DNA of 64,000 nt. Origin: Sterolibacterium denitrificans. GTDB lineage: Bacteria; Pseudomonadota; Gammaproteobacteria; Burkholderiales; Rhodocyclaceae. Position numbers and translations under genes: made by a program. Position 1 is the stretch's first letter; every line of letters starts with the position of its first letter. This document shows, one piece after another, positions 11,809-27,782 of this stretch. The notes beneath the pieces were generated by a model. That model did not search any database and was not told where the DNA came from. It worked only from the letters and a program-made list of their open reading frames with translations. The stretch is from the NCBI RefSeq assembly GCF_900174485.1, contig NZ_LT837803.1, positions 620,001 through 684,000 of the forward strand. The letters are read 5' to 3'.

Positions 11809-13683
11809 ATGATCAGGATATCCAGCCTCATCATCATCCTTGTCGCCTTGACGCTGGCGGCCTGCGCCAAGCCGCGCAAGCCGGCGCCGCCGCCGCAGGT
11901 GGTACCGGCACCGAGTTTCGCCTGCGACATGACGGCGCAGGAAATCATGTGCAGCAGCGCGCGTCTGGCCAGACTCGACGGCGAGCTGGTGGACGCCTTC
12001 CATGCCGCCCTGCGCCGCAGCGACACGCTCGGCCGCGAACATTTGAATGCCATGCAGAAACGCTGGCTGGCGGGCCGGGCGGGCGCCTGCGGTGTGCCGA
12101 CCCTGCGCAGCGCCGTCGGCGTGGCGCCGTCGCCTGCATTGAGTGCCTGTCTGCTCGACATCTACGCCGCTCGCGTCGATATGCTGCGCCGCTGGCCGGC
12201 GGCCGCGCCAGTTGGCCTGCCTGCCGACGGGCCGCATCCGCTGTCCGCCTATGTCGAATTTCGTCCGGTCGAATCCGCCGATGCGCAGGCCTGCGGCGCG
12301 TTGGCGAATGCCTTCAACGGCGCGCTGCGCACCCTGGGAGCGCTCGATATCAACCGCATCTCCGGTCTGAGTGAAATCGCCGGCAGCCATGGCCTGCCGC
12401 GCGCCCAGGGCTATGGCGTGGAGTTGCAGGATGCCGGGGCCTACGCCGGTTTTGCCCTGCGCGCGCGCACGCTGCGCGACGGCAGCGGGCAACTGCTGAT
12501 CGATGCGGCCACGCTCGGTAACTGGGTGCGGCGCTTGCCCAATCACGGCGGGCGGGCCAGCAGCATCGCCACGCAGACCGGCGACTACGAAAGCATCGAC
12601 GTATTCCGCAGCACGCAGTTCCCGCAGCACGTGCTGGCGCTGCTGGTCGAGCCGTGGGGCAGGTACGCGCCGGGCGCGCAGGGCGAGTGGGCGTATGCCG
12701 GCGTCTATCGCCTGGCGCCGGCTTTGGTCGAGCCGCTGTGCCTGTACCGTACCTACATGACGCCGCCGCTGAAGAACGAGTTGATGCGCCTGCCTGCCTA
12801 CGCGGCACTGCAGAAAACGCTCGAAGAGATCGGTGGCACGAATTCGAGCCCGTCCGAACTGGTCGGCCGCGAGCTGCACGAGGAATATCTGCTGCGCCAG
12901 GAGTTGCAGTGGCAGATCCAGAACATGCCGCTCATCGCCAGCGGCGAGGCGCAGCGCCATGGCTGGTGGGGCTGGCTGCGCAAACGCCACGACGGCGTGC
13001 ATGACGCGCTGTTCGCCTGGTCGGAACGCAGCCTGCGCAACAAGCTCGCCTGGCGCCGTCTGCTGGCGCAACTGGCGCCTGCCGCCGAGGAACTCGCCGC
13101 CCTGTGGCAGCGCACCCAGCGCCTGAGCGAGGCCGATGCCCGGCAGGCCGCCCAGCTCACGGTGATGCGCCTGCTCGCCCAGCACGCCAGCGATCTGCCG
13201 GGGCTGGCGGTGAATATGCCGAATGCGCCATTTGCCGGCACCTATACGCCGAAATATCCGCCGCTGGCCGGCGAAACCGAGATTCTGGACGGGCGTAGCT
13301 ACGGCAGCCTGTACAGCGCGGCCCTGAACGGCGCCGATGCGGAAGTGATTGCGGATTTCCTCGACTACGAACTGGCTGCCGCAAAGGCACAGCCTGCGCA
13401 ACAAACCCGGCTGTCGCGCGGCGCCGAAGGCGAGACGGCGCTGATGGCGGCGGTCGAATCGCCCGACATCGTGCGCCAGTTGCTTGCCGCCGGCCTGGAC
13501 GTCAATGCAAGCGATGCGCGTGGCCGCACGGCATTGGCGAATGCGATACTGGTCGGCCAGATTGAAAGCGTGCGGCTGCTGCTTGCCGCTGGCGCCAGCG
13601 ATGCCCGCCAGGCCTGCAATCTCATCAACTCCACTGCGCCTGCCGACAGCAGGGCGCAGCTTGCCGGCATGTTATGCAAATGA
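11809..13683 (+). CDS. Lipoprotein with LprI-like N-terminal region and C-terminal ankyrin repeats
   Basis: 624-residue predicted lipoprotein (lipobox LAAC near residue 20). Residues about 38-90 resemble the LprI/DUF1311 lysozyme-inhibitor type: FACDMTAQEIMCSSARLARLD, then MQKRWLAGRAGACG with paired cysteines. A long unassigned middle follows. Residues about 535-610 hold two ankyrin-like repeats (GETALMAAVESPDIVRQLLAAGLDVNASDARGRTALANA...). Inferred to be an envelope protein, perhaps binding periplasmic partners or host/phage factors. It follows the TonB-like gene by 7 bases and its stop overlaps the next start by ATGA, so all three may be one transcript. Confidence 0.78.
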   Translation: MIRISSLIIILVALTLAACAKPRKPAPPPQVVPAPSFACDMTAQEIMCSSARLARLDGELVDAFHAALRRSDTLGREHLNAMQKRWLAGRAGACGVPTLRSAVGVAPSPALSACLLDIYAARVDMLRRWPAAAPVGLPADGPHPLSAYVEFRPVESADAQACGALANAFNGALRTLGALDINRISGLSEIAGSHGLPRAQGYGVELQDAGAYAGFALRARTLRDGSGQLLIDAATLGNWVRRLPNHGGRASSIATQTGDYESIDVFRSTQFPQHVLALLVEPWGRYAPGAQGEWAYAGVYRLAPALVEPLCLYRTYMTPPLKNELMRLPAYAALQKTLEEIGGTNSSPSELVGRELHEEYLLRQELQWQIQNMPLIASGEAQRHGWWGWLRKRHDGVHDALFAWSERSLRNKLAWRRLLAQLAPAAEELAALWQRTQRLSEADARQAAQLTVMRLLAQHASDLPGLAVNMPNAPFAGTYTPKYPPLAGETEILDGRSYGSLYSAALNGADAEVIADFLDYELAAAKAQPAQQTRLSRGAEGETALMAAVESPDIVRQLLAAGLDVNASDARGRTALANAILVGQIESVRLLLAAGASDARQACNLINSTAPADSRAQLAGMLCK

Positions 13684-14357
13684 GCGAAGCAAACGAATCA
13701 GCAATGGCAGTCGCGGCAATCGTACCAACCGTACCAAGCGCATCAAGCCTGCCAGGTACCCCAGGCGCAGACAGGAATGAGCCGTCAGCGCTGCCGGCCA
13801 GCAAGGGGCGCGTGCCGGGCAACACCGGCATCTGGGTCGGCATCACCTGTGAATTCGTCGAATTCGCTCTGCTGTTCTGCGTCTATTTCATCGCCCGCGC
13901 GCACTTCCCGGAGTCCTTCGAGGAAGGCGCAACCCGGCTGTCGAAACTCGCCGGCACGGTCATCACGCTGCTGATGGTCACCAGCAGCTACTTCATCGCC
14001 TGTTCCGTGATCGAGATGCGGCGCGATCGCCGCCGCCGCTCGCTGCTCTGGCTGCTCGGCGGCCTGCTGCTGGCGCTGGGTTATCCGCTGGCCAAGTTCC
14101 TCGAATTCCGCTGGAACCTGGCGCACGGCATCACCGGCGAATCGGGAATTTTCTTCACCGTGTATTACTACCTCACCCTGACCCACATGGTGCATGCGAT
14201 CTGGGGCATCCTCGGCATGCTGTGGGTGATCGTCCGCCACATTCTCGGCATTTACAGCGCCGAGGATTACGGCGGCCTCGAAGCGCTGGCCAGCTACTGG
14301 CACGCCACCGACATCATCTGGCTGGTGATTTTTCCATTCTTCTACGTGCTGGTCTGA
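13680..14357 (+). CDS. Heme-copper oxidase subunit III-like protein (NorE-like)
   Basis: Polytopic membrane protein of 225 residues with about five membrane segments after a hydrophilic 40-residue N terminus. Subunit III features: GNTGIWVGITCEFVEFALLFCVYFI, then a helix with YFIACSVIEMRRDRRRR, YYYLTLTHMVHAIWGILGM and a C-terminal YWHATDIIWLVIFPFFYVLV. Short versions of this fold (NorE) help nitric oxide reductase. The following gene is the matching NorF/COX4-like partner. No oxidase subunit I/II or norCB is in the window. Start at 13680 overlaps the upstream stop by ATGA; an ATG at 13674 is an alternative. Confidence 0.83.
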   Translation: MSEANESAMAVAAIVPTVPSASSLPGTPGADRNEPSALPASKGRVPGNTGIWVGITCEFVEFALLFCVYFIARAHFPESFEEGATRLSKLAGTVITLLMVTSSYFIACSVIEMRRDRRRRSLLWLLGGLLLALGYPLAKFLEFRWNLAHGITGESGIFFTVYYYLTLTHMVHAIWGILGMLWVIVRHILGIYSAEDYGGLEALASYWHATDIIWLVIFPFFYVLV

Positions 14358-14360
14358 ACC

Positions 14361-14669
14361 ATGGCGACACAAGACGACGCCGTTTCCACTTCCCTCAAAC
14401 CCCTGACCTGGGCCTGGCTGGCGCTGGTCGCCCTGACCCTGCTGAGCCTGGAGCTCGGCCAATGGCTGCATGGCGTGGCCTGGCTGCAATTCGTGGTGGC
14501 GGCGATCATCTGGCTCAAGGGCACGCTGGTTGCCCGCAGCTTCATCGAATCGCACATTGCCCATCCCTTCATCCGCAACGTGCTGCGCGTCTTCATCGCC
14601 TTCGCTCCACTGGCGCTGATCCTGATCGTTTTCTTCGGCCGCGAGTTCGCGCGCTGGACGACGCTTTGA
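14361..14669 (+). CDS. Cytochrome oxidase subunit IV / NorF-like membrane protein
   Basis: 102-residue protein with three membrane segments (TWAWLALVALTLLSL, FVVAAIIWLKGTLVA, VFIAFAPLALILIVFF), the pattern of the prokaryotic COX4/NorF family. It starts 3 bases after the NorE-like gene, so the two are translated together. In denitrifiers NorEF-like pairs affect nitric oxide reductase activity; that role here is inferred from the family and pairing only. Confidence 0.78.
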   Translation: MATQDDAVSTSLKPLTWAWLALVALTLLSLELGQWLHGVAWLQFVVAAIIWLKGTLVARSFIESHIAHPFIRNVLRVFIAFAPLALILIVFFGREFARWTTL

Positions 14670-14692: not shown

Positions 14693-15514
14693 ATGCACCA
14701 AACACATGAAGCCGCCGGACTGAAGCAGGCACGGCAAGCACGGCCACCGCATGACCTGCTTGCCGCCTTCATGGCCTATGAACTCTGGTCGTTCCTCGCC
14801 TGGCAGGACATCCGCATCCGCTATCGGCGCTCCAGGATCGGCCCCTTCTGGATCACGCTGAGCACGGCGATTTTTTGCGTGGCGCTCGGCATCGTCTATG
14901 GCCGGCTGTTCAAGACGGAAATCTCCGAATTGCTGCCCTTCCTGTCCATCGGCATGGTGGTCTGGAGCTTCGTTTCCACCTGCATCGGCGAAATGCCCAA
15001 CCTGTTCGTCGAGAACGCGCCCTACATCAAGGACATGCGCATCAACCCGCTGACCATACTGCTGCGGGCCATCGCCAGAAACGCCATCATCTTCGCCCAC
15101 AACCTGCTGATCGTCGCCGGCATCTACCTTTATTTCGGCATCTGGCCGGGCTGGACCGGCTTGCTGGCGTTGCCCGGCATGCTGCTGGTCATGCTGAATC
15201 TGCTGGCCATCGGCGTCATCCTGAGCATCGTCGGCGCCCGCTTTCGCGATCTTGCCCAGATCACGCAAAGCGTTTTGCAAGTCATTTTCTTCATTACGCC
15301 CATCTTCTGGCTGCCCAAGCTGTTGCCGGAAGGCAGTTGGGTCATTGCCGCCAATCCGATGGCCTATTTTCTCGACCTGCTGCGCTCGCCCTTGCTGGGC
15401 CATGCCCCGGCGGCGGTTTCGTGGGGCGTTTCGTCGCTCATGCTGCTCGTCGGCGCCGCCATTGCCGCCTGGGTCTATCGCAGCAAAAACGCCCGCATCC
15501 CCTTCTGGGTGTAG
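14693..15514 (+). CDS. wzm: Polysaccharide ABC exporter, permease (Wzm-type)
   Basis: Inner-membrane half of an ABC-2 type exporter that moves undecaprenyl-linked O-antigen or capsule across the membrane. 273 residues with six membrane segments; the cytoplasmic N-terminal motif WQDIRIRYRRSRIGPFWITLS is diagnostic of the polysaccharide exporter family, as is NPMAYFLDLLRSPLLG near the C terminus. Start at 14693 is preceded by AGGA. The ATPase gene follows after 11 bases. It opens the first polysaccharide block. Confidence 0.94.
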   Translation: MHQTHEAAGLKQARQARPPHDLLAAFMAYELWSFLAWQDIRIRYRRSRIGPFWITLSTAIFCVALGIVYGRLFKTEISELLPFLSIGMVVWSFVSTCIGEMPNLFVENAPYIKDMRINPLTILLRAIARNAIIFAHNLLIVAGIYLYFGIWPGWTGLLALPGMLLVMLNLLAIGVILSIVGARFRDLAQITQSVLQVIFFITPIFWLPKLLPEGSWVIAANPMAYFLDLLRSPLLGHAPAAVSWGVSSLMLLVGAAIAAWVYRSKNARIPFWV

Positions 15515-15525
15515 GAAAGACTGCC

Positions 15526-16272
15526 ATGGCCTCGATTCAAGTCTCCCATGCCTGTCTCGACTACCCGCTGGTCGGCACCGGCAACCGCTCGCTGAAAAAC
15601 CGCCTGCTCGGCGCCGCCACCGGCGGCCGGATTTCCTCTGGTGATGCCATCCCGGTCGTCACGGCGCTGCGGGACATCAACCTCGACCTTCAGGAAGGAG
15701 ACCGCCTGGGCCTGGTGGGCCACAACGGCGCCGGGAAATCCTCGCTGCTGAAAGTCCTCGCCGGGATCTATCAGCCGACGCGGGGCTCGGTCAGGACGAG
15801 CGGCCGCATCGTCTCCACGCTCAACATCTCCCTGGGCATGGAACCGGAAGCCACCGGCATCGAAAACATCGTCATGCGCGGCCTGCTGCTCGGCATGAAG
15901 CGCGCGGAGATCGACAGGAAACTGGACGAGATCGCCGCCTTTACCGAACTTGGCGACTACCTCGACATGCCCGTCCGCATCTACTCCACCGGCATGGCGA
16001 CCCGGCTCGCCTTTGCCACGATCACGGCAATGGATGCCGACATCCTCCTCATGGACGAAGTCATCGGCACGGGCGATGCCACTTTCCTGGACAAGGCGGA
16101 ACGGCGCCTGAATGCCTTCATGAACCGGAGTCAAATCCTGGTGCTCGCCTCGCACTCGGATCAGGTCATCAAGAAATTCTGCAACAAGACCTTGTTGCTC
16201 GAACGCGGCCAAATCATTGCCACAGGTACGCCTGAAGAGGTTTATGCCATTTATCACCAGGAACGCGGGTGA
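15526..16272 (+). CDS. wzt: Polysaccharide ABC exporter, ATPase (Wzt-type, no C-terminal sugar domain)
   Basis: ATPase partner of the Wzm permease, 248 residues. Walker A GHNGAGKSSLLK, signature region RIYSTGMATRLAFATIT and Walker B DADILLMDEVIGTGD are present, the last being typical for polysaccharide ABC ATPases. It lacks the C-terminal glycan-binding extension found in Wzt proteins that recognise a capped O-antigen end; that suggests the KpsT-like or cap-independent export mode. A beta-rich domain does occur at the C terminus of the nucleotidyltransferase two genes downstream. The stop overlaps a GTG start candidate of the next gene. Confidence 0.94.
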   Translation: MASIQVSHACLDYPLVGTGNRSLKNRLLGAATGGRISSGDAIPVVTALRDINLDLQEGDRLGLVGHNGAGKSSLLKVLAGIYQPTRGSVRTSGRIVSTLNISLGMEPEATGIENIVMRGLLLGMKRAEIDRKLDEIAAFTELGDYLDMPVRIYSTGMATRLAFATITAMDADILLMDEVIGTGDATFLDKAERRLNAFMNRSQILVLASHSDQVIKKFCNKTLLLERGQIIATGTPEEVYAIYHQERG

Positions 16273-16298
16273 GTTTTGTCTTAACTGAAACAAAGAAC

Positions 16299-17342
16299 AT
16301 GACCACCATGCCACTTTCTTCACTGATACCCCGGTTGCGCACGGCCTTTCTTTCCGCAGCACACGCAAATCCACAGCAGGTCAGTTTGAACATTGCCGGC
16401 CATGCAGCGCAATTGATTTTCGCGGATGAGACACTGCATGACGCTTTCGCACCGTCTTTGCAGGGTTTGATCGAGCCAGCTTCGTCAACCAACGTCAAAT
16501 CCGGCGGCTTGACCATACACGCCTGGTCAGGTGGCACAGACAACATGCCGTGCCCGGACATCGTTGCCGATCTGGAGCGCTTCCCCGACAAGATTTCGGT
16601 GGTGAATGCCGGCAGTCTGCATCTACAGTACAACCCGGAGGGGAAGATCCTGAGCTGCATCGATACCGATCTGGGCGAGGCTTATTACCATGCGGCCGAC
16701 GTCGGTCAGCTTCCCGACTATGAAATCTGCACGCCGATGCGCATGCTGTTCAACTGGAGCTGTGCGATGCACGGCGTGCTCATGGTGCATGCCGCAGCCG
16801 TCGGCAAGCATGGCATCGGGGCGCTGATCGTCGGCAAGAGCGGGGCGGGCAAGTCAACGACCGCGCTGCAATGCCTGTTGAACGGCCTCGACTATCTGGG
16901 CGACGACTATGTGGCCGTCAACAGTGACGATGGCACGGTGCATCATCTCTATCGCGGCTGCAAGGTGATGGATGACGCGCTTGAACGCCTGCCGGTGCTG
17001 GCGCCGCACGTCATCATGCATAACCGGCCCAATCGGAAGAGCGTCGTCATCCTCGACGATACCCTGGGCGCGCTGGTGCCGTCTTTCCGGCTTGTTGCGA
17101 TTATCCGCCCCAGGGTGGCGAAAGCTGCCGGCAGCAATTTCAGTCCGCTCTCACCCAGACAGGCCGTCGCGGAATTTGCAGCGAGCACCATTCTGCAAAT
17201 GCCGGGAACCGGAAGCTACATGCTGCGCGAGTTGTCGAAGCTGTGCGCCAGAGTTTCCGCTTTTGAAATGTCCCTGAGTACGGAGCCGGCCGAGATAGCC
17301 CAGGCGCTCGATGATTTCCTGCAGCAATATTCCACTACATGA
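16299..17342 (+). CDS. HPr kinase-like (HprK-related) P-loop protein
   Basis: 347-residue protein related to the C-terminal kinase half of HPr kinase/phosphorylase. The P-loop VGKSGAGKST is at about residues 178-187, preceded by HAAAVGKHG, and the acidic YLGDDYVAV segment at about 205 fits the HprK DD motif. No phosphocarrier HPr is nearby, so the substrate is unknown. It sits between wzt and a nucleotidyltransferase and is followed by a PqqD-like gene; such kinase/nucleotidyltransferase/PqqD sets are known from peptide-modification and polysaccharide loci. An in-frame GTG at 16269 overlapping the wzt stop is an alternative start. The stop overlaps the next start by ATGA. Confidence 0.8.
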   Translation: MTTMPLSSLIPRLRTAFLSAAHANPQQVSLNIAGHAAQLIFADETLHDAFAPSLQGLIEPASSTNVKSGGLTIHAWSGGTDNMPCPDIVADLERFPDKISVVNAGSLHLQYNPEGKILSCIDTDLGEAYYHAADVGQLPDYEICTPMRMLFNWSCAMHGVLMVHAAAVGKHGIGALIVGKSGAGKSTTALQCLLNGLDYLGDDYVAVNSDDGTVHHLYRGCKVMDDALERLPVLAPHVIMHNRPNRKSVVILDDTLGALVPSFRLVAIIRPRVAKAAGSNFSPLSPRQAVAEFAASTILQMPGTGSYMLRELSKLCARVSAFEMSLSTEPAEIAQALDDFLQQYSTT

Positions 17343-19027
17343 CCATGCTGCTGACCTGCTTCGAGGACATCCCGACAGTGACGCGCAGCCAGCAATTGCT
17401 GCTGGATGCCTTGATGGCGGAGCCGCCACGCGACCATGAGTCGTTTGAACGCTGGGTTCGGGAGGTCGATTTCGATCGGCTCGATTATTCTTCCCTGAGG
17501 CTCGTGCCTGCGCTGTTCAGAAAATACAGCGAGCATCCCGCATGCGCGCCCTATCGCGCCCGGATGAAGGGCATCTATCGTTATTTTCACTATCGGACCA
17601 ACCTGATCGCCGCCGATGCGTACCAGGCCATGCACGCCCTGACGGCGGCGGGCGTGGCGTTGATCGTCTTCAAGGGCTTGGCCATCGCCCTCAAATATCA
17701 TCGGGACATCGCACTGCGGCCGATGGGCGATGTGGACATCCTCATCCGCAAGGAGGATCTCGGCAAGGCCGAAGGCATCCTGCAGGATCTGGATTGGCAG
17801 TATCGATACGAGTCGTCCAGGAAGCCGCATGACCTGCATTCCCACGACTACATCAACAAGAACAAGAGTGGTCTGGATTTGCACTGGCATTCGTTGTACG
17901 AATCTCCCGTCGCCGGTATCGACGATGGCCTCTGGCAACGAGCCGAAACCCTGGTTTGGCAAGGTTTGTCCATACAGATCATGGGGCCAGAGGATCTCGT
18001 TCTGACCGCCATGATCAACGGCATGCGGGATACGCAGTACATGAAGTTCGTATACTGCGGATGGCTTTTCGACGTGGCCGCCATCGTGCGGGACAGCCCC
18101 GATTTCGATTTCGATTGGGATCTGGTCTGGGACGAGGCCGGGCGACGCGGGCTGCGCTCCAAAGTGTTTGCTGCCCTGGTGTTGTTGCACCAGCAGCAAC
18201 CGCAACTTCTTCCCATGGCGACGCTCCAGGGTCTGTTTGCTTCCGATCCGGAGCTGATACGGCAGCTTGTTCTTGAAAACCGGACGTCCTGCCTGAATCC
18301 CGCGCGTCGTCGTGAAATAAATGCCCTGCTTGATCCGAGCCCGATCAACCGCTTGCTGCATTGCGTGCAACCCAAGTGGTCGGTCTACCGGCGCCTGGCT
18401 CGCGACCCGTCGGCAGCCAAGTACGTGCGCTACACCACGACTGCCGAGGGCTGGGTAGACTCGCTCTACCTCCATCGTCATGCGCTTGCCTGGTTGCCCC
18501 AACTGTTCAGATTTACCGATCCCGACAGCCGGGGGGCAGGCATAAGCCACCGGTTGCAGGGCGATGAGGGTTGGGTGACGATCGAACCCGGTGTACTCGC
18601 TCTTGCCGATCAGGACGCACTACCCAGCTACGGCGCACGGATCGAATTGCTGTCGCCGTCCGACAAAAATATGCGGCTTCAGGTCGGGGAAACAGGGGAG
18701 ATCGCACTGCGCATACTGAACGATTCTCCGTACTGCTGGACTGTGCGGGGTGACAGTGAGGCGCTATATGGCGTTTCCTATCACTTGCTGAGTGAGGATG
18801 GAGCTCTGCTGTCCTGGGACCAGCCGCGTGCCCATTTCATGAATTCGATGGACAAGTACGTTTCCTTTGTTGCACCTGGCCAGAGGCTCGACTGCCGGTT
18901 GCAGGTGCAGGCTCCGGAGCGTCCTGGGCGCTACCGGCTCCAACTGGATGTTGTACAGGAGTTCGTAACGTGGTTTTCGGGCCGGGGTTGCAGTTTCCCC
19001 GTCATTGGATTGCAAGTCGATGAATAA
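17339..19027 (+). CDS. Nucleotidyltransferase family protein (PF14907-like) with C-terminal beta domain
   Basis: 562 residues. The N-terminal two thirds match the nucleotidyltransferase family found next to PqqD-like and lasso-peptide genes: VALIVFKGLAIALKYH (residues about 106-121, the KG motif) and RPMGDVDILIRKED with the metal-binding D131-x-D133, then HDYINKNKSGLDLHWHSLYE. From about residue 415 to the end is a distinct region rich in beta-strand pattern (LQVGETGEIALRILNDSPYCW, VAPGQRLDCRLQVQAP, GRYRLQLDVVQEFVTWFS) similar in style to glycan-binding beta-sandwiches attached to polysaccharide enzymes. The ATGA overlap with the kinase gene shows tight coupling. Biochemical role unknown. Confidence 0.8.
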   Translation: MTMLLTCFEDIPTVTRSQQLLLDALMAEPPRDHESFERWVREVDFDRLDYSSLRLVPALFRKYSEHPACAPYRARMKGIYRYFHYRTNLIAADAYQAMHALTAAGVALIVFKGLAIALKYHRDIALRPMGDVDILIRKEDLGKAEGILQDLDWQYRYESSRKPHDLHSHDYINKNKSGLDLHWHSLYESPVAGIDDGLWQRAETLVWQGLSIQIMGPEDLVLTAMINGMRDTQYMKFVYCGWLFDVAAIVRDSPDFDFDWDLVWDEAGRRGLRSKVFAALVLLHQQQPQLLPMATLQGLFASDPELIRQLVLENRTSCLNPARRREINALLDPSPINRLLHCVQPKWSVYRRLARDPSAAKYVRYTTTAEGWVDSLYLHRHALAWLPQLFRFTDPDSRGAGISHRLQGDEGWVTIEPGVLALADQDALPSYGARIELLSPSDKNMRLQVGETGEIALRILNDSPYCWTVRGDSEALYGVSYHLLSEDGALLSWDQPRAHFMNSMDKYVSFVAPGQRLDCRLQVQAPERPGRYRLQLDVVQEFVTWFSGRGCSFPVIGLQVDE

Positions 19028-19048
19028 ACAAAAGGATCGAACAAAATC

Positions 19049-19465
19049 ATGTACCAGGTAAATTCGCCTCGCATCGCTCACGAAACACTGGATGGCGAAA
19101 CCATCGTCATCGATACCCAGACGGGTTTCTATTACACGCTGGATGGCCATGCCGCAACCATTTGGCAAGCCCTGGCCGGCGGCGTATCTTCAACCGAAGT
19201 CATCGGCGCATACGTTCAGGCCGGCCTGTTTCAAGAGGAAGCCATCCGCGAATTCATCGATCGATTGCTGGCTGCCGAACTGCTGCTCAAGTCGGAAAAT
19301 GCCATGGGCCATAAGGCGTTCTCCTTGCCTGCATTACCTCTGGAAACCCCTCGCATCCTGACGCTCAAGACGCATTCCGATCTTCAGGAACTGATCGAGC
19401 TCGATCCGATTCACGAAGTCGATCCAACCCAGGGCTGGCCGATGAAGTCCGCATCAGACCAATGA
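19049..19465 (+). CDS. PqqD-like protein
   Basis: 138-residue protein. The first 90 residues match the PqqD/RiPP-recognition winged-helix fold: ETLDGETIVIDTQTGFYYTLDGHAATIWQALAGG and IREFIDRLLAAELL. Family members bind leader peptides and present them to modifying enzymes, but no radical SAM or precursor gene was seen nearby. Together with the HprK-like and nucleotidyltransferase genes it forms a three-gene unit. The tail from residue 95 is unlike PqqD and unassigned. Its stop overlaps the following glycosyltransferase start by ATGA. Confidence 0.8.
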   Translation: MYQVNSPRIAHETLDGETIVIDTQTGFYYTLDGHAATIWQALAGGVSSTEVIGAYVQAGLFQEEAIREFIDRLLAAELLLKSENAMGHKAFSLPALPLETPRILTLKTHSDLQELIELDPIHEVDPTQGWPMKSASDQ

Positions 19466-20154
19466 AAACCGATCATCATCCGGACATCAGCGTCATCATT
19501 CCTGCCTACAACGCAGGACGCTACCTGCATGGCGCAATCGGCAGCGTGCTGGCCCAGACGCGTCAGGCCAGCGAAATCATCGTCATTGACGATGGATCAT
19601 CGGATGATACCGCTCGAATTGCCGCCGGTTTTCTGGGGGTACGGCTCATCGAGACACCCCATGCAGGCGTATCGGCTGCAAGAAATGCCGGCCTGGATGC
19701 GGCCCGAGGGCATTATCTGGCTTTCCTGGATGCCGATGATCTGTGGCTTCCGACCAAGCTGGAGCGGCAAATTGCGTTCCTTCTCGACAATCCGGGCGCG
19801 AGCGGCGTATTCGGCCATGTCCAGCAGTTCGTAAGCCCCGAGCTTGCCAAGGAGCAGCGCGACCGTTACCAGGCCAACACCGCCCCCATGCCGGGTCTGC
19901 TTGCCGGCGCGCTCTTCATCAAACGCGATGAATTTCTTGCCGTCGGCAAGTTCGATGAAGCCTTGGCCGGCGGTGAATTCATCGACTGGATGGCAAGAGC
20001 CAAGCGGCTAGGCCTTTCACTGCCAGTGCTTGGAGATACCCTATTGCTGAGGCGAATACATGGCAACAACAGCGTGTTGACCGGCACCGAGGCGCTGCAT
20101 CATGCCTATCTCCAGCTCATCCGGAAAAAGATAAAGTCGGAAAATGGGAGCTGA
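19462..20154 (+). CDS. Glycosyltransferase family 2
   Basis: 230-residue GT-A fold glycosyltransferase. ISVIIPAYNAGRYLHGAIGSVL, VIDDGSSDDTARIA, AARNAGLDAARGHYLAFLDADDLW (with the DxD-like D-A-D-D metal site) are all typical. The short C terminus and lack of membrane helices suggest a soluble or membrane-associated enzyme adding one sugar, or acting in the HprK/PqqD system with which it is translationally coupled (ATGA overlap). Donor and acceptor are unknown. It converges with the large GT gene, only 4 bases apart. Confidence 0.88.
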   Translation: MKTDHHPDISVIIPAYNAGRYLHGAIGSVLAQTRQASEIIVIDDGSSDDTARIAAGFLGVRLIETPHAGVSAARNAGLDAARGHYLAFLDADDLWLPTKLERQIAFLLDNPGASGVFGHVQQFVSPELAKEQRDRYQANTAPMPGLLAGALFIKRDEFLAVGKFDEALAGGEFIDWMARAKRLGLSLPVLGDTLLLRRIHGNNSVLTGTEALHHAYLQLIRKKIKSENGS

Positions 20155-20158
20155 TTTT

Positions 20159-23100
20159 TTACTGCCTGTTGCCGAGCAATATGCCGGCCAGATTCTCAGC
20201 GCTTTCTTTCCACGTCAACCAGGGCATTTCGTCCGGCTTCGGATGTTTGCCCTGTCGGTATGACGCCAGCCATGACTTGATTGCACGAGCCAGATCTGCG
20301 GGATGCTCTGCAATGAAGTAGTCGGCGCAGTCTCCCGCCACTTCCCGAAACACAGGAATATCCCGCGCGATGATGGGCAGTCTGTGTTGCGCCGCTTCGA
20401 TCAGCGGCAGGCCGAAACCTTCGCCGCAGGAAGCGGCGATCAGGCAGGTGCTGGCAGCATAGACTTTTTCAAGGTATTCGTCGCCGATGCCTGCGAGCCA
20501 GAACAGGCGCTTGCCGAGCTCGGGATGGCCGTGCAGTCGCTCGACCAGCGCGTCCACCAGCCAGCCTTGCTTGCCGACGATCGCAAGATTGATATCGACG
20601 CCTTCACGCCACAGTTGCTCGAAGGCATCCAGAACCTGGCCGTGGCCCTTGCGCGGTTCCAGCGTGCCGACCATCAGGAAGCCGGGATGAGCGTCGAGCC
20701 GGGCGAGGATGGCTTGCACGTCGCCTGACAGTGCGGCGTTGCCGGCTTTGGTGTCCGCGCCGGCGCGCTCGCCAGCACCATTGTGCGACCAGTCGATTTC
20801 AAAAGCGTCTTGGTGCCGCGGGTTGTTGAGCCTTATCCAATCTGTCAGTTCATCCGCCACGATTCGGGAAACGCAAACGGCGCCATCCGTTTCCGCAACG
20901 ACTTCCAGCCAGTGCAAAAAAGCGTCCTTGACGCCGGGCGAGAAAAACTGCGGCATCCGGATGCACAGCAGGTCATGCACCAGGAACTTCACCCTCACGC
21001 CCTGGCTGCGCAGGCTGCGGTAGAACCGGCGTTGCGCCGCCTGCACCTCCGGTTGCAAATCGAGGCCGAAAAACATATCGCCGGAAGCGTAGTCGATCGG
21101 TTCATCGGCCAGTCCTGCGTGCGGCCAATTCATGAAGTCCGCCGTGAAGCGCCGCGCATAGCGGTAGCCTTGCTCGAGCGTGGCGTAGACCGGCTCGATA
21201 CGAAAGTCCCTGGGCGGATTGCTCAGCCACTCCTTGAGAATGCTGCGCACGACGCGCTGTATGCCGGCTTTGGCATCCCGCTGCACGAGTTCCGAAATAT
21301 CCACGAATAGCTGTTTTGCCTTGCGCCTCGGCGGAAAGCTCAAGGCAAGGTTATGCGCAAGTTTTCGCAGATCCCCGTCTTCGGCAGCACCTGCCATGAT
21401 GCCGGCCAGTTTGGGATAAAGATCAAACAGGACGGGCGGATTGGTTCGGTAGAAGTGCTCGATGCTTTCGGCATAAGACTGGGCGCACCTGCCGGGGTCA
21501 TGCCTGTCAAGAATGACGTTGCGTGCGTTTTTACCCAGCGCGGTTCGTTTCGCGGGGTTGCGCCACAAGGTTTCCAGCGCCTGAACCAGTTCCGCATCGT
21601 CGAACTCATCCGGCAGCATCCAGACTGCGGCTTCATCCAGATCCGCCATGCTGCCATTGGCATTGACGATGGTGGGCAGACCATGATTCATGCAGTCCAG
21701 CACCGCTCCCGACGTTTCGCCGCGGGAAAGTGCGCGCAACTGCACGCCGACATCGGCTGCCGCCAGATAGTTTTTGAATGTCTCCGGACTTGCCCAGCCA
21801 GTAATCCGAATACGGGCGGCGCAGGATGAACGCTTGATGGCGGACGCCAGTTCGTCGCCGTAGTCTCCATCATGGTTTTTGCCGACGAATACCAGATGGC
21901 AGGCGCTGTCTCGAGCCAGATCGGAATCGAGCCAGGCCTGCAGCAGCCGGTGGTTGAGCTTGTGAGGGCCCAGCAGACCGAATGCGCAGACGATGAAATC
22001 ATCGTCCGCAAAGCCCAGGGTTCGCCGTGCGCTGCCCGCATTCGCATCCGGTACGCGCAAGTGCGGAATGATCTTCAGGGAAGATGTGTCCAGGCCATAC
22101 CACCGCTGCGCCAGATGCACGGAATTCGGCGAGTGCACTATGGTGCCGACGCTGTTTTCCAGCACGGCCCGGCTTGCCGGATATTTCCAGACGACTTCCG
22201 CAATATCTTCGGCCCTGGCCAGATCCTGCAGGGCGGCGTAGCCATGGGACTGATACAGGGCCTGGGTGAAAAATCCCGGCGCATAGCCCGTGGCCTGCAT
22301 GTGATGCTCGATGTTCGACAGATGGAAGTCATGCAGCACCACGACGCCAGGCACCGCCTGGAGCATGGCGAACATGTGCTGATGGAAGTGCGAGTTGCCG
22401 AAATGGTAGAGCACGCGATCGTAAGCGTGCGCATGTTGCATGAACCACGCTACTGAACGAACGGGACAATGCTCACGTATCCACGGGTTGGCAATGTTCT
22501 TCTGCTCGACAATGACTTCGATTTGATAGTGCCCGGAAAGTACCGGCAAGAGTTCGGCACTGTAATCCGCTATGCCGGAGCGCTCGGGCGGCAGGGGAGA
22601 GACATAGGCCAGCTTTGGTTTCGCCAGGTTTTTTGATGCTGCCGGGTCCTGCCGGATTTTCTCGGCATGCGCCTGTTCCATCGCGGCAATGGCGCGTCGG
22701 GCAGTGTCGTCCCAGGAGAATCTTGCGGACTGCCGCCTTGAATTCTCCCGCAAGCGCTTCCGGAATGCCTCGTCGGTCAAGGCGCGCTCCATGAGGCGAG
22801 CAATGGCCGTATCGGAATGGGGGTCGAACAAGGCCTCGTCCATGCCCACCACTTCCGGCAGACTGGATAGGTTGGATGCAATCACCGGCGCGCCGCAGCG
22901 CATGGCTTCCAGCGCCGGCAGGCCGAAACCTTCGTGCCAGGATGGGAAGACGAACAAGGTGCAGGCGCCATAGAGGCCGATCAGGTCTGCTTCCGGGACA
23001 AAGCCGGTCAGGATCAGTTCGCCATCACCCAGGCCTTGTTTCTTCGCCAGCGCCAGCAATTGATGACGGCTGGCGTCGTGGACGGAACAGACGATGGCAA

Positions 23101-23881
23101 GTTGATGCCGCTGCCGCAATTGTTTCGGCAGCAGGCTGTAAGCGCGAATCAAGCCTTCGATGTTCTTGCGGAAATCGATGCCGCCGGTATACATGACGAA
23201 GCCGTTCCGAATACCGTATTTCTGCTTGATTGCCGCCAGCTCGGCCGTCGTTTGTTCGAGCGTGCCGAACTGCGCGTCTGCATCGGTGGAAATATTCAGG
23301 CACCGGGTCGAGGGAAACCCCAGGCGCTGTATGCCTTCCTGGCGGGAAGATTCGGATATGGCGAGCCACAGGCCGGCATTTTTCAACTGCTCGATTTTTC
23401 CCAGATACCAGTTTCTGGTGTCCGGATTTTCCAGATACGGACTTTGATGAATATAGGGGATCAGGTCGTAGAGTATGACGGCGGTAAGGTGGCGATGCTC
23501 GCCAACGTCGATACCCGTTACGGCATCGTCCCCCAGCCCTTCAAACAGGCTCGACACCAGCACCACGTCCGGCGCCAAGGAAGTCAGGAATGCTTCGCGC
23601 ACGCACTCGCTGATTTGCCGTCTCGGTTTGTTTTCGATTGCGATGAAGGCAGCCGGCGCGAGGGGATGCCAGACCTTGATATTGTCGCCGGGCAGAACGC
23701 CGTCGAAAGCTGCACGAATTCTCTCGATGGAATCGGGAAAGGCGCCGTTCAGGGCGAGCAGGATTTCGTGCGTCCTGCAATGCCGTACCATGGCTTTGGC
23801 CAGGGCCATGGTATAGCGGCCAATACCCCGGTTCCAGGAGCCATTGGACTGCGCGCCCTGCATGTCGATGACGATGCGCAT
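20159..23881 (-). CDS. Large protein with three tandem GT4-type glycosyltransferase modules
   Basis: 1240 residues. Module A (about 1-395) starts MRIVIDMQGAQSNGSWNRGIGRYT and has the donor-site motif PSWHEGFGLPALEAMRCGAPVIAS. Module B (about 425-800) starts YVSPLPPERSGIADYSAELL; its donor motif GETSGAVLDCMNHGLP is divergent from the usual E-x7-E. Module C (about 855-1240) has VGTLEPRKGHGQVLDAFEQL and GEGFGLPLIEAAQHRLPIIA. Fused GT4 modules occur in polymannan/rhamnan synthases such as WbdA, so this is probably a processive or multi-linkage polymerase acting on a lipid-linked glycan in the cytoplasm. The start overlaps the stop of the 93-residue gene by ATGA. Confidence 0.92.
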   Translation of the reverse strand: MRIVIDMQGAQSNGSWNRGIGRYTMALAKAMVRHCRTHEILLALNGAFPDSIERIRAAFDGVLPGDNIKVWHPLAPAAFIAIENKPRRQISECVREAFLTSLAPDVVLVSSLFEGLGDDAVTGIDVGEHRHLTAVILYDLIPYIHQSPYLENPDTRNWYLGKIEQLKNAGLWLAISESSRQEGIQRLGFPSTRCLNISTDADAQFGTLEQTTAELAAIKQKYGIRNGFVMYTGGIDFRKNIEGLIRAYSLLPKQLRQRHQLAIVCSVHDASRHQLLALAKKQGLGDGELILTGFVPEADLIGLYGACTLFVFPSWHEGFGLPALEAMRCGAPVIASNLSSLPEVVGMDEALFDPHSDTAIARLMERALTDEAFRKRLRENSRRQSARFSWDDTARRAIAAMEQAHAEKIRQDPAASKNLAKPKLAYVSPLPPERSGIADYSAELLPVLSGHYQIEVIVEQKNIANPWIREHCPVRSVAWFMQHAHAYDRVLYHFGNSHFHQHMFAMLQAVPGVVVLHDFHLSNIEHHMQATGYAPGFFTQALYQSHGYAALQDLARAEDIAEVVWKYPASRAVLENSVGTIVHSPNSVHLAQRWYGLDTSSLKIIPHLRVPDANAGSARRTLGFADDDFIVCAFGLLGPHKLNHRLLQAWLDSDLARDSACHLVFVGKNHDGDYGDELASAIKRSSCAARIRITGWASPETFKNYLAAADVGVQLRALSRGETSGAVLDCMNHGLPTIVNANGSMADLDEAAVWMLPDEFDDAELVQALETLWRNPAKRTALGKNARNVILDRHDPGRCAQSYAESIEHFYRTNPPVLFDLYPKLAGIMAGAAEDGDLRKLAHNLALSFPPRRKAKQLFVDISELVQRDAKAGIQRVVRSILKEWLSNPPRDFRIEPVYATLEQGYRYARRFTADFMNWPHAGLADEPIDYASGDMFFGLDLQPEVQAAQRRFYRSLRSQGVRVKFLVHDLLCIRMPQFFSPGVKDAFLHWLEVVAETDGAVCVSRIVADELTDWIRLNNPRHQDAFEIDWSHNGAGERAGADTKAGNAALSGDVQAILARLDAHPGFLMVGTLEPRKGHGQVLDAFEQLWREGVDINLAIVGKQGWLVDALVERLHGHPELGKRLFWLAGIGDEYLEKVYAASTCLIAASCGEGFGLPLIEAAQHRLPIIARDIPVFREVAGDCADYFIAEHPADLARAIKSWLASYRQGKHPKPDEMPWLTWKESAENLAGILLGNRQ

Positions 23882-24162
23882 CAGCGCTGTCCCTTCTGTT
23901 GCTCGATGGCCGACTTGAGATCGGCGTAGATCCGGTGCGCGCGTGGCGTGAGCTGAGACAGCTCGGCGGGAATATCAGGTGGTCGGGTGCGTTGCGCAAA
24001 CGATGCCGATGCGCCCATGACCAGCCGCATCAAGCGCGTCTTCATTCCAGGGAATCGATTCACCAGTGCCACGACCACGCGCCTGAGCCTGGGACGACGA
24101 TTGACGTAGAGACTGGCGTGCTGCAGAACGACGATTGCACGGGATTTGAGCGCCATTTTCAT
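23881..24162 (-). CDS. Small hypothetical protein upstream of the triple glycosyltransferase
   Basis: 93 residues, basic in its first 50 (NRRPRLRRVVVALVNRFPGMKTRLMRLV), with no membrane segment and a charged C terminus. I do not recognise a domain; similar Arg-rich stretches occur at the ends of some polysaccharide-locus methyltransferases and glycosyltransferases, so it could be a detached tail or a membrane-docking partner. The stop overlaps the start of the triple GT gene by ATGA, which supports translation. There are 54 bases between its start and the upstream membrane-protein stop. Confidence 0.6.
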   Translation of the reverse strand: MKMALKSRAIVVLQHASLYVNRRPRLRRVVVALVNRFPGMKTRLMRLVMGASASFAQRTRPPDIPAELSQLTPRAHRIYADLKSAIEQQKGQR

Positions 24163-24216
24163 GAAACGGTTGCGAGGTGAGTTTTGGAAAGTGGGAAGTG
24201 GAAACTGGAAAGCGGC

Positions 24217-26148
24217 TCAATGCGCCTGCAATCGCCACTCATAGCCGGTGATTCGCACCACATCTCCGGTTCCCACATATACCCGAATTTCCACGTCTGG
24301 TTCATCACGCGGCAGAGACACCAGTTCATCCACCAGCGCATCCTCCCCTGGCTGCAATGCGAATTGCGCATAACGCAGGTTTCCGCTGCGCGCCACGACA
24401 TCCGCCCAGGCTGTCCCTGCCTGTTGCACCGTACCGAATATCTGCAGCCGGTACACGCCTTGCGACGCGGCTCGATAGGGGCCATAGAGCAAGAAACCTT
24501 CCTCGCCCAGGCTATGTATCCCTTTGAGATCGCCATAGCCCACCTGGCTATAGAGGGAAATCAAATCCGTCCCGCGGTATGTCCAATGCGCCGCCGGTTC
24601 CCTGGTCATGGCCGGTGTCGGTGGCATGCCTTGCTCCAGCACGAGATACCAGGCAGGTTTCCGGCCAGCGATCAATCGCGCTTCACGCACGCGCACTGTT
24701 TGCTCCGCATAGGCATTGACCTGTTTCAGGCAGCTTTCCACGGTGTCTTGCAAACAGCCCACCTCAAGCCGACCATCCTGCCTCAAGGCTGACGCGATAT
24801 GCTCGCGGAGCCCCTTTTTGTTGCCCTCTGCGCGGCCGGTCACGCCAAAAGCCGGCTGCCTCTGCAGCATCCCCGCCATTACCGCCGACCAGGTCTGTTC
24901 AAACTCGCCCGCATATATCGTCGTCCCCATGCCGACGATCGGCGCCACGCGCTGGGCAAACGCATACTGCTGAAGCGGTACGGGAGCGCGTATCAGTACC
25001 GCGATCAGCCATAGAAAAGCCAGCGCAGTCGCCGTCATCCGCCAAAACCCGGGGATGGCTGCCAGCAGCTTCGCCAATTCCAGAGACAGCGCAATGCCGA
25101 ACGCCAGCCACGCAAAAACGAAGTAGCGATAATGAAAGGCAAACTTCTGCACCCAGGCATTGCCTGCAAACAGCAGCAACCAGCCCAGTGCAAACAGCAC
25201 TGCCAGGATCTGCACCCACAAGACCTGTACGTTCCAACTGCTCCGGTTTCGCCATGCCTGCCACAGGCGGAGTGTCACCACGACCAACAACAACGCTTCC
25301 AGTCTCGGCAGCCAAAGCGCGTTTTGCATGCTGCCAAGCGCCAGCGGCAATCCCTCGCGCAAGGTGGCAAAGGAAAACCCCGCATACTCCGTGCCCGAAG
25401 GTCCGGCAACCCGATGCGCAACGAGCCACCACAGCAGAAACAGCACGACGGCCAGCCCAGCGAAGCCCAGATTGCGCATTTCCAGGCGGCGCTGCAGCAA
25501 CATGCGCCCACCGACCAAAGCCAGGGCAGGAATCACCGTGCTGAAGTTGACTCCCAAGGCCAGGCCCAGCAGCAGCGCGACAACCAGCATGCGCAGCCAG
25601 AGCGGCCCCAGGAGGCGGTTTGCTCCGGAAGCGGCAAACCATGTCTCATGAGCCCATAGCAGCAGCAAACAGGCCAGCGGATACTCCACATGCCATACCA
25701 CCACCTCGTACACCGCATGAGGCTTCAGCACCAGCAGCACGATTGCCGACAGCAGCAAAAACAACTGCCGGGCCCGTCTGGTATTTACCTGGCGATCGCC
25801 ATCGCTATCCGGCGGTGATACCAATCTCACGGCCACGCCCGCCCAGGCGCGCAGCAGGCCGAAGAAAACCAGCGTGGGGAAAAGGAGATTGGCCCAGAGA
25901 TTGGCTGCCGGGTCGTGTATCAACGACGTCAGCGCCGGGCCCACGTTCAGCAAGCGGTTTTGCCCCCAGAAAAACAGGGTGACGTTCTGTAGCGACATCA
26001 CCGAATACAGCATGACGTCGCCACTGACGGGCTCTGGCGCAAAGCGATTCACCGTCGCCGCCGCCAGCGCCAGCAACAGCAGCGCATCCAGCCCCCAATT
26101 GCCTCTCCAATTTCGCCAGCGTTGCCGGATTGCAGTCGTATTCAACAT
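24217..26148 (-). CDS. Polytopic membrane protein, possible GT-C type glycosyltransferase
   Basis: 643 residues with about ten hydrophobic segments up to residue 430 and a soluble C-terminal region of about 210 residues. The first loop holds an acidic residue (EPVSGDVMLYS), a GT-C-like placement. No family could be named with confidence. Alternatives are an O-antigen ligase/polymerase-like protein. It follows the small membrane gene with a 7-base overlap and lies downstream of a GtrB-like enzyme, consistent with use of an undecaprenyl-phosphate sugar donor for glycan decoration (inference). Confidence 0.7.
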   Translation of the reverse strand: MLNTTAIRQRWRNWRGNWGLDALLLLALAAATVNRFAPEPVSGDVMLYSVMSLQNVTLFFWGQNRLLNVGPALTSLIHDPAANLWANLLFPTLVFFGLLRAWAGVAVRLVSPPDSDGDRQVNTRRARQLFLLLSAIVLLVLKPHAVYEVVVWHVEYPLACLLLLWAHETWFAASGANRLLGPLWLRMLVVALLLGLALGVNFSTVIPALALVGGRMLLQRRLEMRNLGFAGLAVVLFLLWWLVAHRVAGPSGTEYAGFSFATLREGLPLALGSMQNALWLPRLEALLLVVVTLRLWQAWRNRSSWNVQVLWVQILAVLFALGWLLLFAGNAWVQKFAFHYRYFVFAWLAFGIALSLELAKLLAAIPGFWRMTATALAFLWLIAVLIRAPVPLQQYAFAQRVAPIVGMGTTIYAGEFEQTWSAVMAGMLQRQPAFGVTGRAEGNKKGLREHIASALRQDGRLEVGCLQDTVESCLKQVNAYAEQTVRVREARLIAGRKPAWYLVLEQGMPPTPAMTREPAAHWTYRGTDLISLYSQVGYGDLKGIHSLGEEGFLLYGPYRAASQGVYRLQIFGTVQQAGTAWADVVARSGNLRYAQFALQPGEDALVDELVSLPRDEPDVEIRVYVGTGDVVRITGYEWRLQAH

Positions 26149-26756
26149 TCGTAGCCCGGGCTTGGCCTGTCATGGCGAAAAGGGTCGGTGAGCGCATCCG
26201 AATAGTCGCTCATCAGCAAGCGCTGGCGCGGCAGGAAATTCCGTCGGAGGTAGCGACTGAAACTTGCCAGATGCTGACCTCTTTGCGTCAGGCGCACGCA
26301 GTTGCCATCCAGCCTTACGGTCCCCGAGGCCAACTGTTCCGTCAGCCGGATCTCCACCAAACGATGTTCCGGCATGTACTCCCGCACGAAGACTTCATCG
26401 AGGCGCGCCAACTGGATGCCGCCGCCGCGCTGCTGCAGCTTCTCAAGAATGTAGAACGACAGGGATCGGTCGATGACCGTTGGCACCGAAATTGCAAAAC
26501 CATAGGCCAGCAGCAGCCAGATCGCCGCCAACTGCAGCTTCTCGAAGCCGCCCAGCATGGCCAGCCAACGCCCGCGCCACAGCACGGCGGCGCTCAGGAT
26601 GCACGCCAGCACGCCGTCCAATAGCGCGTCGTACAGCACCACGTCCACATGGAAAAACCGCGCATGCACGCCATACACGAGCAGCAACATGGCCACGAAA
26701 ACCATCGTTGCCGATACGGCGCGCCACAGTTTGTTCATCGTGGTCGCCTCATTCAT
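26142..26756 (-). CDS. Membrane protein of unknown function
   Basis: 204 residues with about three membrane segments in the first 110 residues (AVSATMVFVAMLLLVYGV, LLDGVLACILSAAVLW, LAAIWLLLAYGFAI) and a polar C-terminal region of about 90 residues. Its size resembles small partner proteins of membrane glycosyltransferases, but sequence similarity to GtrA is not evident to me. A second ATG six codons in (MNKLWR) is an alternative start. It overlaps the downstream 643-residue membrane gene by 7 bases. Confidence 0.65.
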   Translation of the reverse strand: MNEATTMNKLWRAVSATMVFVAMLLLVYGVHARFFHVDVVLYDALLDGVLACILSAAVLWRGRWLAMLGGFEKLQLAAIWLLLAYGFAISVPTVIDRSLSFYILEKLQQRGGGIQLARLDEVFVREYMPEHRLVEIRLTEQLASGTVRLDGNCVRLTQRGQHLASFSRYLRRNFLPRQRLLMSDYSDALTDPFRHDRPSPGYEC

Positions 26757-26789
26757 CGAGGCAGCCTGCCGTTGCGATTGCAGCCCGAA

Positions 26790-27782
26790 TCACCACATTT
26801 CCCCGTCAGCATCAACACGGCTCTCCAGCGATATGCCGCCATCCCTGCATTCGACCCGTTCCACGAAACCGCCGTATCTCGGAAGCATGGTTGCCGTGCT
26901 GCGCGCCACGCCCGTCAGCATCAGCGTCAACAAGGTCAACGCTCCCGTCTGCAAAAACATCAGCAGCAGAATCCCCAGCGCCACCGAGAACCAGCCTGGC
27001 GTGGCAAAACCGGCAAGTTTGAGAAATATCGCCACGCCCATCGCCAGCACCGCCATGCAGGCGACGGACAGACAGGCGATCCCCACGCGCACCAGTACGT
27101 CCTCGGCAAATACCATGGTTGCACGGAATCCATGCAATACCAGGCCAACGAAATTCATCTTGCTGCGGCCCGCATAGCGAGGGCCGCGATCCAGCGGACA
27201 GGCGGTTGTCCGCAGTTTTGACGCAAGCACCGCGCCCGCCACATGTATCGACAACTCCTGCATGGCGACCAGGCGCTTGACTGCCGCAGGCTTCAGGGCC
27301 ATGAAATTTCCGAAACTGATCGAGCGCCCGGTCATCAAGCCGAAGAGGCGCTTGTACAGCGCATAGAAGACCTTGAAACGCAGGGTTTCCACCCGGCTCT
27401 TGCGTTGCGCGACCACCACATCGGTTTGCGCCGATTCGAGCGGCGCCAGCAGCAAGGGAATGGTGGCGGGCAGATCTTCGCCATCGGAATCCATGACCAC
27501 TACGCGATGCTCGGGCTGCATGTGCGCGGCCACATAACCCAGGCCAATGGCGATGGCGCGTTGATGTCCGACATTGCGGCGCAGTTTGAGTATCACGCCG
27601 GCAACCTCGGCGTGCGCGAGGCTTGCAATTTCCAGGGGTTGATCGACTGAACCGTCATCCACCGCCACCACGAAAACATCCCGGCCAAACTGCGCGGCCA
27701 GCTCCTTGAACAAGCGGCTGCTGGCATCGACGTCTTCATACACCGGCGTCACGACAATCAAACGATGCGCGCTGTCGATCAT
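26790..27782 (-). CDS. GT2 with two C-terminal membrane helices, GtrB/ArnC-like
   Basis: 330 residues. The N-terminal GT-A domain has [51 protein letters not shown] and [15 protein letters not shown]. Two helices at about 235-300 ([34 protein letters not shown]) complete the layout of enzymes that load a sugar on undecaprenyl phosphate (GtrB, ArnC, DPM). Following a UDP-glucuronate decarboxylase with an ATGA overlap, UDP-xylose is a plausible donor (inference). Confidence 0.88.

Follow-up and report, generated by a model that had tools for sequence, protein, structure and literature searches.

A widespread bacterial cassette of HprK-like kinase, nucleotidyltransferase, tailed PqqD protein and GT2 glycosyltransferase, possibly for RRE-guided phospho-glycosylation

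The cassette and its four proteins

A 64,000-nt stretch from Sterolibacterium denitrificans (contig NZ_LT837803.1, positions 620,001 to 684,000; hereafter the window) carries a cassette of four genes encoding, in order, an HprK-like kinase, a nucleotidyltransferase (NTase) of the NTP_transf_5 family, a PqqD protein and a family 2 glycosyltransferase (GT2). PqqD proteins belong with the recognition elements (RREs) of ribosomally synthesized and post-translationally modified peptides (RiPPs). The four genes form one operon, downstream of Wzm/Wzt exporter genes on the same strand. The kinase and NTP_transf_5 genes share 4 bp (17339-17342), as do the PqqD and GT2 genes (19462-19465), while a 21-bp spacer separates the NTP_transf_5 and PqqD genes. 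The initial annotation of the window had pointed to these four successive genes and their two overlaps; both hold at their coordinates, and co-occurrence in dozens of loci from many phyla is more than chance.

The kinase gene (16299..17342, + strand) was assigned by Pfam Hpr_kinase_C, a PDB profile match and conserved residues; its true start may be not ATG 16299 but GTG 16269, which overlaps the Wzt stop. The Pfam match (E 1.5e-7, 31.6 bits) falls slightly below the 33.3 cut-off, with an alignment covering only the P-loop to Asp-Asp portion, and the profile match was to HPr kinases 1jb1/2qmh (E 1.6e-6). Against TIGR00679 (HPr(Ser) kinase/phosphorylase) the protein reached 30.5 bits, short of the 240-bit full-length cut-off; a separate canonical HprK is encoded elsewhere in the same genome (C1:997410). 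Residues H164, K185, D202, D203, K222 and K247 are conserved at at least 98% among 47 cassette kinases. Lasso-peptide kinases require a His-Lys-Asp-Asp motif (PMC9266682), to which the H, K, D and D of the cassette kinases probably correspond, as equated by pattern rather than by alignment to lasso kinases.

The NTP_transf_5 protein (17339..19027, + strand) is the single PF14907 match in the genome (E 4.8e-37, 128.3 bits vs the 31.2 gathering cut-off). A sequence search of solved structures found none matching it. Its AlphaFold model has an NTase fold at residues ~82-300 and a C-terminal beta-sandwich at ~430-562, and the NTase motif residues R127 and D133 are conserved at >90% among 74 homologues. 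Fold matches included ANT(2'') (Z 14.3), LnuA (14.2), MenT1 (Z 14) and FKRP (10.3); the likeness to FKRP/fukutin phospho-ribitol transferases and to the antibiotic nucleotidyltransferases ANT(2'') and LnuA, spanning Z 10-14, is one of fold only. The NTP_transf_5 proteins of the window and of loci L033, L035, L071, L091 and L129 exceed the usual length, at 479-562 aa; in the window, the additional residues, encoded at 18627-19027, are those modelled as the C-terminal beta-sandwich.

The GT2 (19462..20154, + strand) matched PF00535 (Glycos_transf_2) with E 5e-33. It is nearer to cassette GT2s from other phyla (194 bits to that of L055) than to any other GT2 of its own genome (best 65.9 bits).

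A conserved tail on the PqqD protein

The PqqD/RRE protein (19049..19465, + strand) is the only PF05402 match in the genome (E 1.6e-6, 28.8 bits vs a 23.4 cut-off). The best PDB matches of its model were the lasso B1 proteins TbiB1 and TfuB1, both solved as leader-peptide complexes, although lasso PqqD profile models scored it at just 20.6-20.9 bits against cut-offs of 70-80. Cassette PqqD proteins are mostly ~138-190 aa long and carry a conserved C-terminal tail with the consensus KYTDMQDLLLLDPIHEVDExGWP. The window segment encoding the tail (HSDLQELIELDPIHEVDPTQGWP), identified by the tail pattern, spans 19373..19441 on the + strand, with approximate limits. The tail core DP[IV]H[ED]V was our search pattern for surveying PqqD proteins; tail positions outside the pattern are also strongly conserved (D111 97%, G129 99%, W130 99%, P131 96%).

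The tail pattern occurs once in the whole genome, in the cassette PqqD, and the tail is restricted to PqqD proteins accompanied by a GT2. AlphaFold modelled the PqqD domain with a predicted local distance difference test score of ~95 and the tail with 56-63; a low-confidence tail beside a confident domain would fit a docking segment. We also considered the tail as a free-standing peptide. This was rejected: across loci, matches to a tail hidden Markov model were PqqD proteins or PqqD-HprK fusions only, consistent with the single pattern match in the genome itself.

Linkage and fusions across bacteria

The PqqD-started pattern search of 84,980 species genomes yielded 361 matches, 243 of them PqqD relatives. 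The best 80 loci, many from metagenome-assembled genomes, came from Pseudomonadota, Cyanobacteria, Bacteroidota and relatives, Chloroflexota, Nitrospirota, Planctomycetota, Acidobacteriota, Gemmatimonadota, Verrucomicrobiota, Bipolaricaulota and others; tail-bearing PqqD proteins, with the looser consensus KYTDMxDLLxLDPIHEVDExGWP, span at least 10 phyla. Linkage was counted in the 50 loci where the tail-PqqD gene has no less than 7 kb of sequence on either side. Within 8 kb of that gene were HprK in 45/50, NTP_transf_5 in 41/50, GT2 in 49/50 and all three in 38/50, with partner matches declining as distance grows. The most frequent order was PqqD-HprK-GT2-GT2-NTP_transf_5.

Some cassette genes are naturally fused. 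PqqD, tail and HprK are joined in L130 and L113, HprK and GT2 in L127, and HprK with two GT2s in L059; L131 combines NTP_transf_5, ABC, HprK and GT2 in a single 1427-aa frame. A second, weak PqqD-like segment was seen between the tail and the kinase domain in both PqqD-tail-HprK fusions (L130:9974-11734, L113:9923-11890). Distance matrices of the four proteins, from 34 loci, correlate at 0.60-0.89, exceeding all 1000 permutations, with PqqD-HprK at r=0.89; computed without species-tree control, these values show joint inheritance, not contact.

A kinase-started search in 300 genomes of the order found four close relatives, each with PqqD, NTP_transf_5 and GT2 beside it (L032 included). Because conservation of the tail core is biased by its use as search pattern, a kinase-first search independent of that pattern was made in 398 Pseudomonadota. 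The five further kinases of cassette type that it found all had a tail-bearing PqqD adjoining and a GT2 close by, and one of these loci, L148 (DPVHDSGEEGWP), carries a variant tail core that the earlier pattern would not match. Five weaker kinase matches in the same set had a PqqD without tail and no GT2 in the short stretches examined. Loci L149-L153, from one Pseudomonadota genus with genomes of ~6 Mb, form a third class, combining an HprK-like kinase, a tail-less PqqD and a divergent NTP_transf_5, with no GT2 in the stretch examined; the L151 score of 29.5 bits is below the HPr-rel-A cut-off (see below).

The initial annotation had suspected a little-described system coupling a peptide-recognition fold to glycan enzymes, and this is supported by the near-constant GT2, the retained His-Lys-Asp-Asp residues of the kinase and the lasso B1-like PqqD fold. 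It had also asked whether the kinase, nucleotidyltransferase and PqqD genes might be scattered without glycan genes. They are not, a GT2 being almost always present, but they often stand outside polysaccharide export loci. We found no cassette relatives in viral contigs, and PADLOC anti-phage defence models matched none of the four proteins.

Neighbours and a peptide-free glycan role

Frequent cassette neighbours are MsbA-type ABC (ATP-binding cassette) proteins, present in 23 loci, along with GT4 glycosyltransferases, sulfotransferases and epimerases. Wzm lies close to the cassette in 4/85 loci (L053, L067 and L087 besides the window). Stand-alone cassettes are common, for example L033 and L035, and Crinalium epipsammum PCC 9333 has the full gene set on a mobilizable plasmid (L141, NC_019735.1). 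Near that plasmid cassette are a group II intron reverse transcriptase and FkbM methyltransferase, SMP-30 and TPR genes.

The proposal that the cassette performs a step in polysaccharide assembly was not upheld as a general one, given how many cassettes stand alone, with an MsbA-type ABC protein or on a plasmid. With Wzm/Wzt linkage so rare, such a step may hold for the window locus, not for the system. A peptide-free role in glycan or glycolipid synthesis is nevertheless the main rival to the phospho-glycosylation model that we favour below. PqqD would serve as scaffold or activator for kinase and GT2, the kinase would phosphorylate a glycan, glycolipid or sugar, NTP_transf_5 would act like FKRP or LicD in transferring a phospho-alditol or nucleotide, and GT2 would add sugars; in the window, a polysaccharide exported by Wzm/Wzt would be decorated or primed. 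The operon with Wzm/Wzt, the other three loci with Wzm, the glycan-type neighbours (FkbM methyltransferase among them), the FKRP fold match and the standing of GT2 as most constant partner all speak for this, as does our failure to find a precursor gene near cassettes. It is weakened by the scarcity of Wzm, by a PqqD fold nearest to the peptide-binding domains of lasso B1 proteins, and by the fact that, to our knowledge, all characterised PqqD-type domains bind peptides. The known pair of HprK-like kinase and nucleotidyltransferase, moreover, has a peptide substrate (PMC9266682). On balance we regard a peptide-free role as a serious possibility, if a somewhat improbable one.

Search for a peptide acceptor

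We compared 1885 small open reading frames around ~80 cassettes, and no family emerged beyond close relatives. A linked precursor peptide was rejected for lack of any conserved small reading frame family near these cassettes. A lasso cluster was likewise rejected: the genome, 99.97% complete, has no match to the B2 leader peptidase (PF13471), and no linked precursor was found.

The same observations bear on whether the cassette is a RiPP pathway, lasso-like or other, with a precursor gene that lies away from the enzyme genes or is so short that it escapes recognition, and a secreted phospho-glycosylated small peptide as product. RiPP precursors usually adjoin their enzyme genes, and here none is conserved across the loci; the lasso B2 protease is missing, and Asn synthetase and transglutaminase are absent from the commonest neighbour families. 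MsbA-type ABC proteins in many cassettes would suit a secreted product, and PqqD/RRE, HprK-type kinase and nucleotidyltransferase do occur together in lasso-peptide clusters (PMC9266682). We nonetheless consider a RiPP pathway unlikely.

Relation to known systems

The closest gene arrangement is that of the HPr-rel-A system (NCBIfam TIGR04352 HprK_rel_A, TIGR04353 PqqD_rel_X), which likewise has an HprK-like kinase, a PqqD and an NTP_transf_5-like nucleotidyltransferase in adjacent genes. Its PqqD, however, is ~85-100 aa and tail-less, and the system has no GT2, whereas the cassette has both tail and GT2. Against TIGR04352 (cut-off 200 bits) the window kinase scored 40.5 and three other cassette kinases 18-34, compared with 349-394 for true members; TIGR04353 (cut-off 35 bits) did not match the PqqD of the window or of L055, while the true member L041 scored 50.2 bits. 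Judged by these cut-offs, the cassette is a related but distinct class, not the HPr-rel-A system. Could it be a divergent copy of that system, with GT2 an incidental neighbour? The same three families do form one block, and HprK_rel_A is the window kinase's top NCBIfam match. The gap between its score and the cut-off, the failure to match TIGR04353, the existence of HprK-GT2 fusions, and the tail and GT2 that mark the cassette class but are both absent from 15/15 HPr-rel-A-type loci make such a copy very improbable. Several of the HPr-rel-A loci L037-L051 adjoin genes resembling an XrtA/PEP-CTERM polysaccharide set.

Lasso-peptide tailoring (paeninodin PadeK; pseudomycoidin PsmK and PsmN; the B1 RRE) shares with the cassette the His-Lys-Asp-Asp kinase motif, the RRE fold and the pairing of kinase with nucleotidyltransferase; unlike it, the cassette lacks a precursor and B2 protease, and has dedicated GT2s and the conserved PqqD tail. 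In pseudomycoidin, PsmK phosphorylates the C-terminal Ser, and PsmN is required for one or two hexoses on that Ser; an alternative raised in the same review is that PsmN might be a true nucleotidyltransferase (PMC9266682). RRE mining has also reported RRE-glycosyltransferase fusions (PMC7470986, PMC12710340). These too couple a peptide-binding RRE domain to a glycosyltransferase; the cassette differs in keeping its parts as separate proteins and in adding a kinase and nucleotidyltransferase. The open-access literature (subscription papers lay outside the search) yielded no paper on the cassette and no pairing of its genes outside lasso peptides. Widespread and apparently undescribed so far, the cassette varies the HprK-PqqD-nucleotidyltransferase theme by having a GT2 and a signature tail.

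The genomic island

In the window, the operon begins with a Wzm-like ABC-2 permease of a polysaccharide exporter (14693..15514, + strand, start ATG 14693; PF01061 E 8.5e-18), which scored 223.8 bits with galactan_ABC_perm, under the 380 cut-off. Next is a Wzt-like ABC ATPase (15526..16272, + strand; 298.8 bits with galactan_ABC_ATP, under the 400 cut-off); PF00005 is its sole Pfam domain, and its length of 248 aa leaves no room for a C-terminal carbohydrate-binding domain. Downstream of the cassette lies a convergent block on the opposite strand: a triple GT4 (20159-23881), a 643-aa protein (24217-26148), a 204-aa protein, a GT2-like protein, and an epimerase ending at 28708. The triple GT4 is a 1240-aa chain with three GT4-type (Glycos_transf_1) stretches.

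Permease to epimerase (14693-28708) constitutes a low-GC accessory glycan island: GC is 57-63% across ~14 to 29 kb of the window vs ~66% on either side. On one side it borders on a pair of oxidase-subunit genes, on the other on the tRNA-dihydrouridine synthase gene dus. The oxidase pair (13674-14669) encodes a protein weakly resembling COX3 and a small partner of 102 aa; an adjoining catalytic oxidase subunit is absent. The sister species G670 and G671 of the genus have none of the island: in both, a stretch of 1 to 2 kb that holds an unrelated gene separates the oxidase-partner gene (called cox4) from dus. In a third genus member (G672, deposited as Sterolibacterium sp. and apparently the same contig as L052), kinase-NTP_transf_5-PqqD-GT2 runs straight up to dus and the convergent block is absent. 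The cassette is therefore accessory and can occur apart from the other glycan genes.

A model of RRE-guided phospho-glycosylation

Cassette anatomy, linkage across phyla, gene fusions, the kinase's catalytic residues, the RRE and NTase folds, and the limitation of the tail to GT2-associated PqqD proteins are the observations on which our model builds. We tentatively favour, as a reading somewhat short of probable, a widespread, horizontally moving system for RRE-guided phospho-glycosylation of a polypeptide acceptor encoded elsewhere in the genome. Its chemical steps we infer from the lasso enzymes PsmK and PsmN and from the FKRP-like fold matches; what kind of molecule the acceptor is, and that the tail serves for docking, are inferences too. 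The PqqD/RRE protein would hold the acceptor, while its flexible conserved tail would dock onto GT2, the kinase or both. The HprK-like kinase would phosphorylate a Ser/Thr of the acceptor, and NTP_transf_5 would add a sugar or polyol cap to the phosphate, the part that PsmN seems to play in pseudomycoidin once PsmK has acted. One or more dedicated GT2s would extend the glycan, and export would fall to an ABC transporter, which in many loci would be of MsbA type and in the window perhaps Wzm/Wzt.

Several points weigh against this model. The small-frame comparison found no conserved family near cassettes, and no substrate was found. Nucleotide transfer is also known for NTase-fold enzymes, so the fold leaves the NTP_transf_5 reaction undecided. 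The tail core DP[IV]H[ED]V is partly invariant by construction, having served as the search pattern; no Ser, Thr or Tyr is invariant in the tail, which is therefore probably not a phospho-acceptor. The GT2 is similar to common polysaccharide GT2s such as chondroitin synthase.

A bolder version, in which bacteria at large build glycans under RRE guidance and a phosphodiester link joins these to a phosphorylated polypeptide, with the PqqD tail as docking hub for kinase and glycosyltransferases, is doubtful in our estimation. If true, bacteria would have an equivalent, in logic, of the alpha-dystroglycan phospho-glycan. PqqD/RRE domains are widely used to flag ribosomal peptide natural products. 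Here is a large PqqD family with a near-invariant tail, tied to glycosyltransferases and without a peptide gene; thanks to the short tail motif, its members can readily be recognised and tested. It would represent either a new protein phospho-glycosylation or RRE domains that serve glycan enzymes peptide-free, and either outcome would alter how RRE loci are interpreted.

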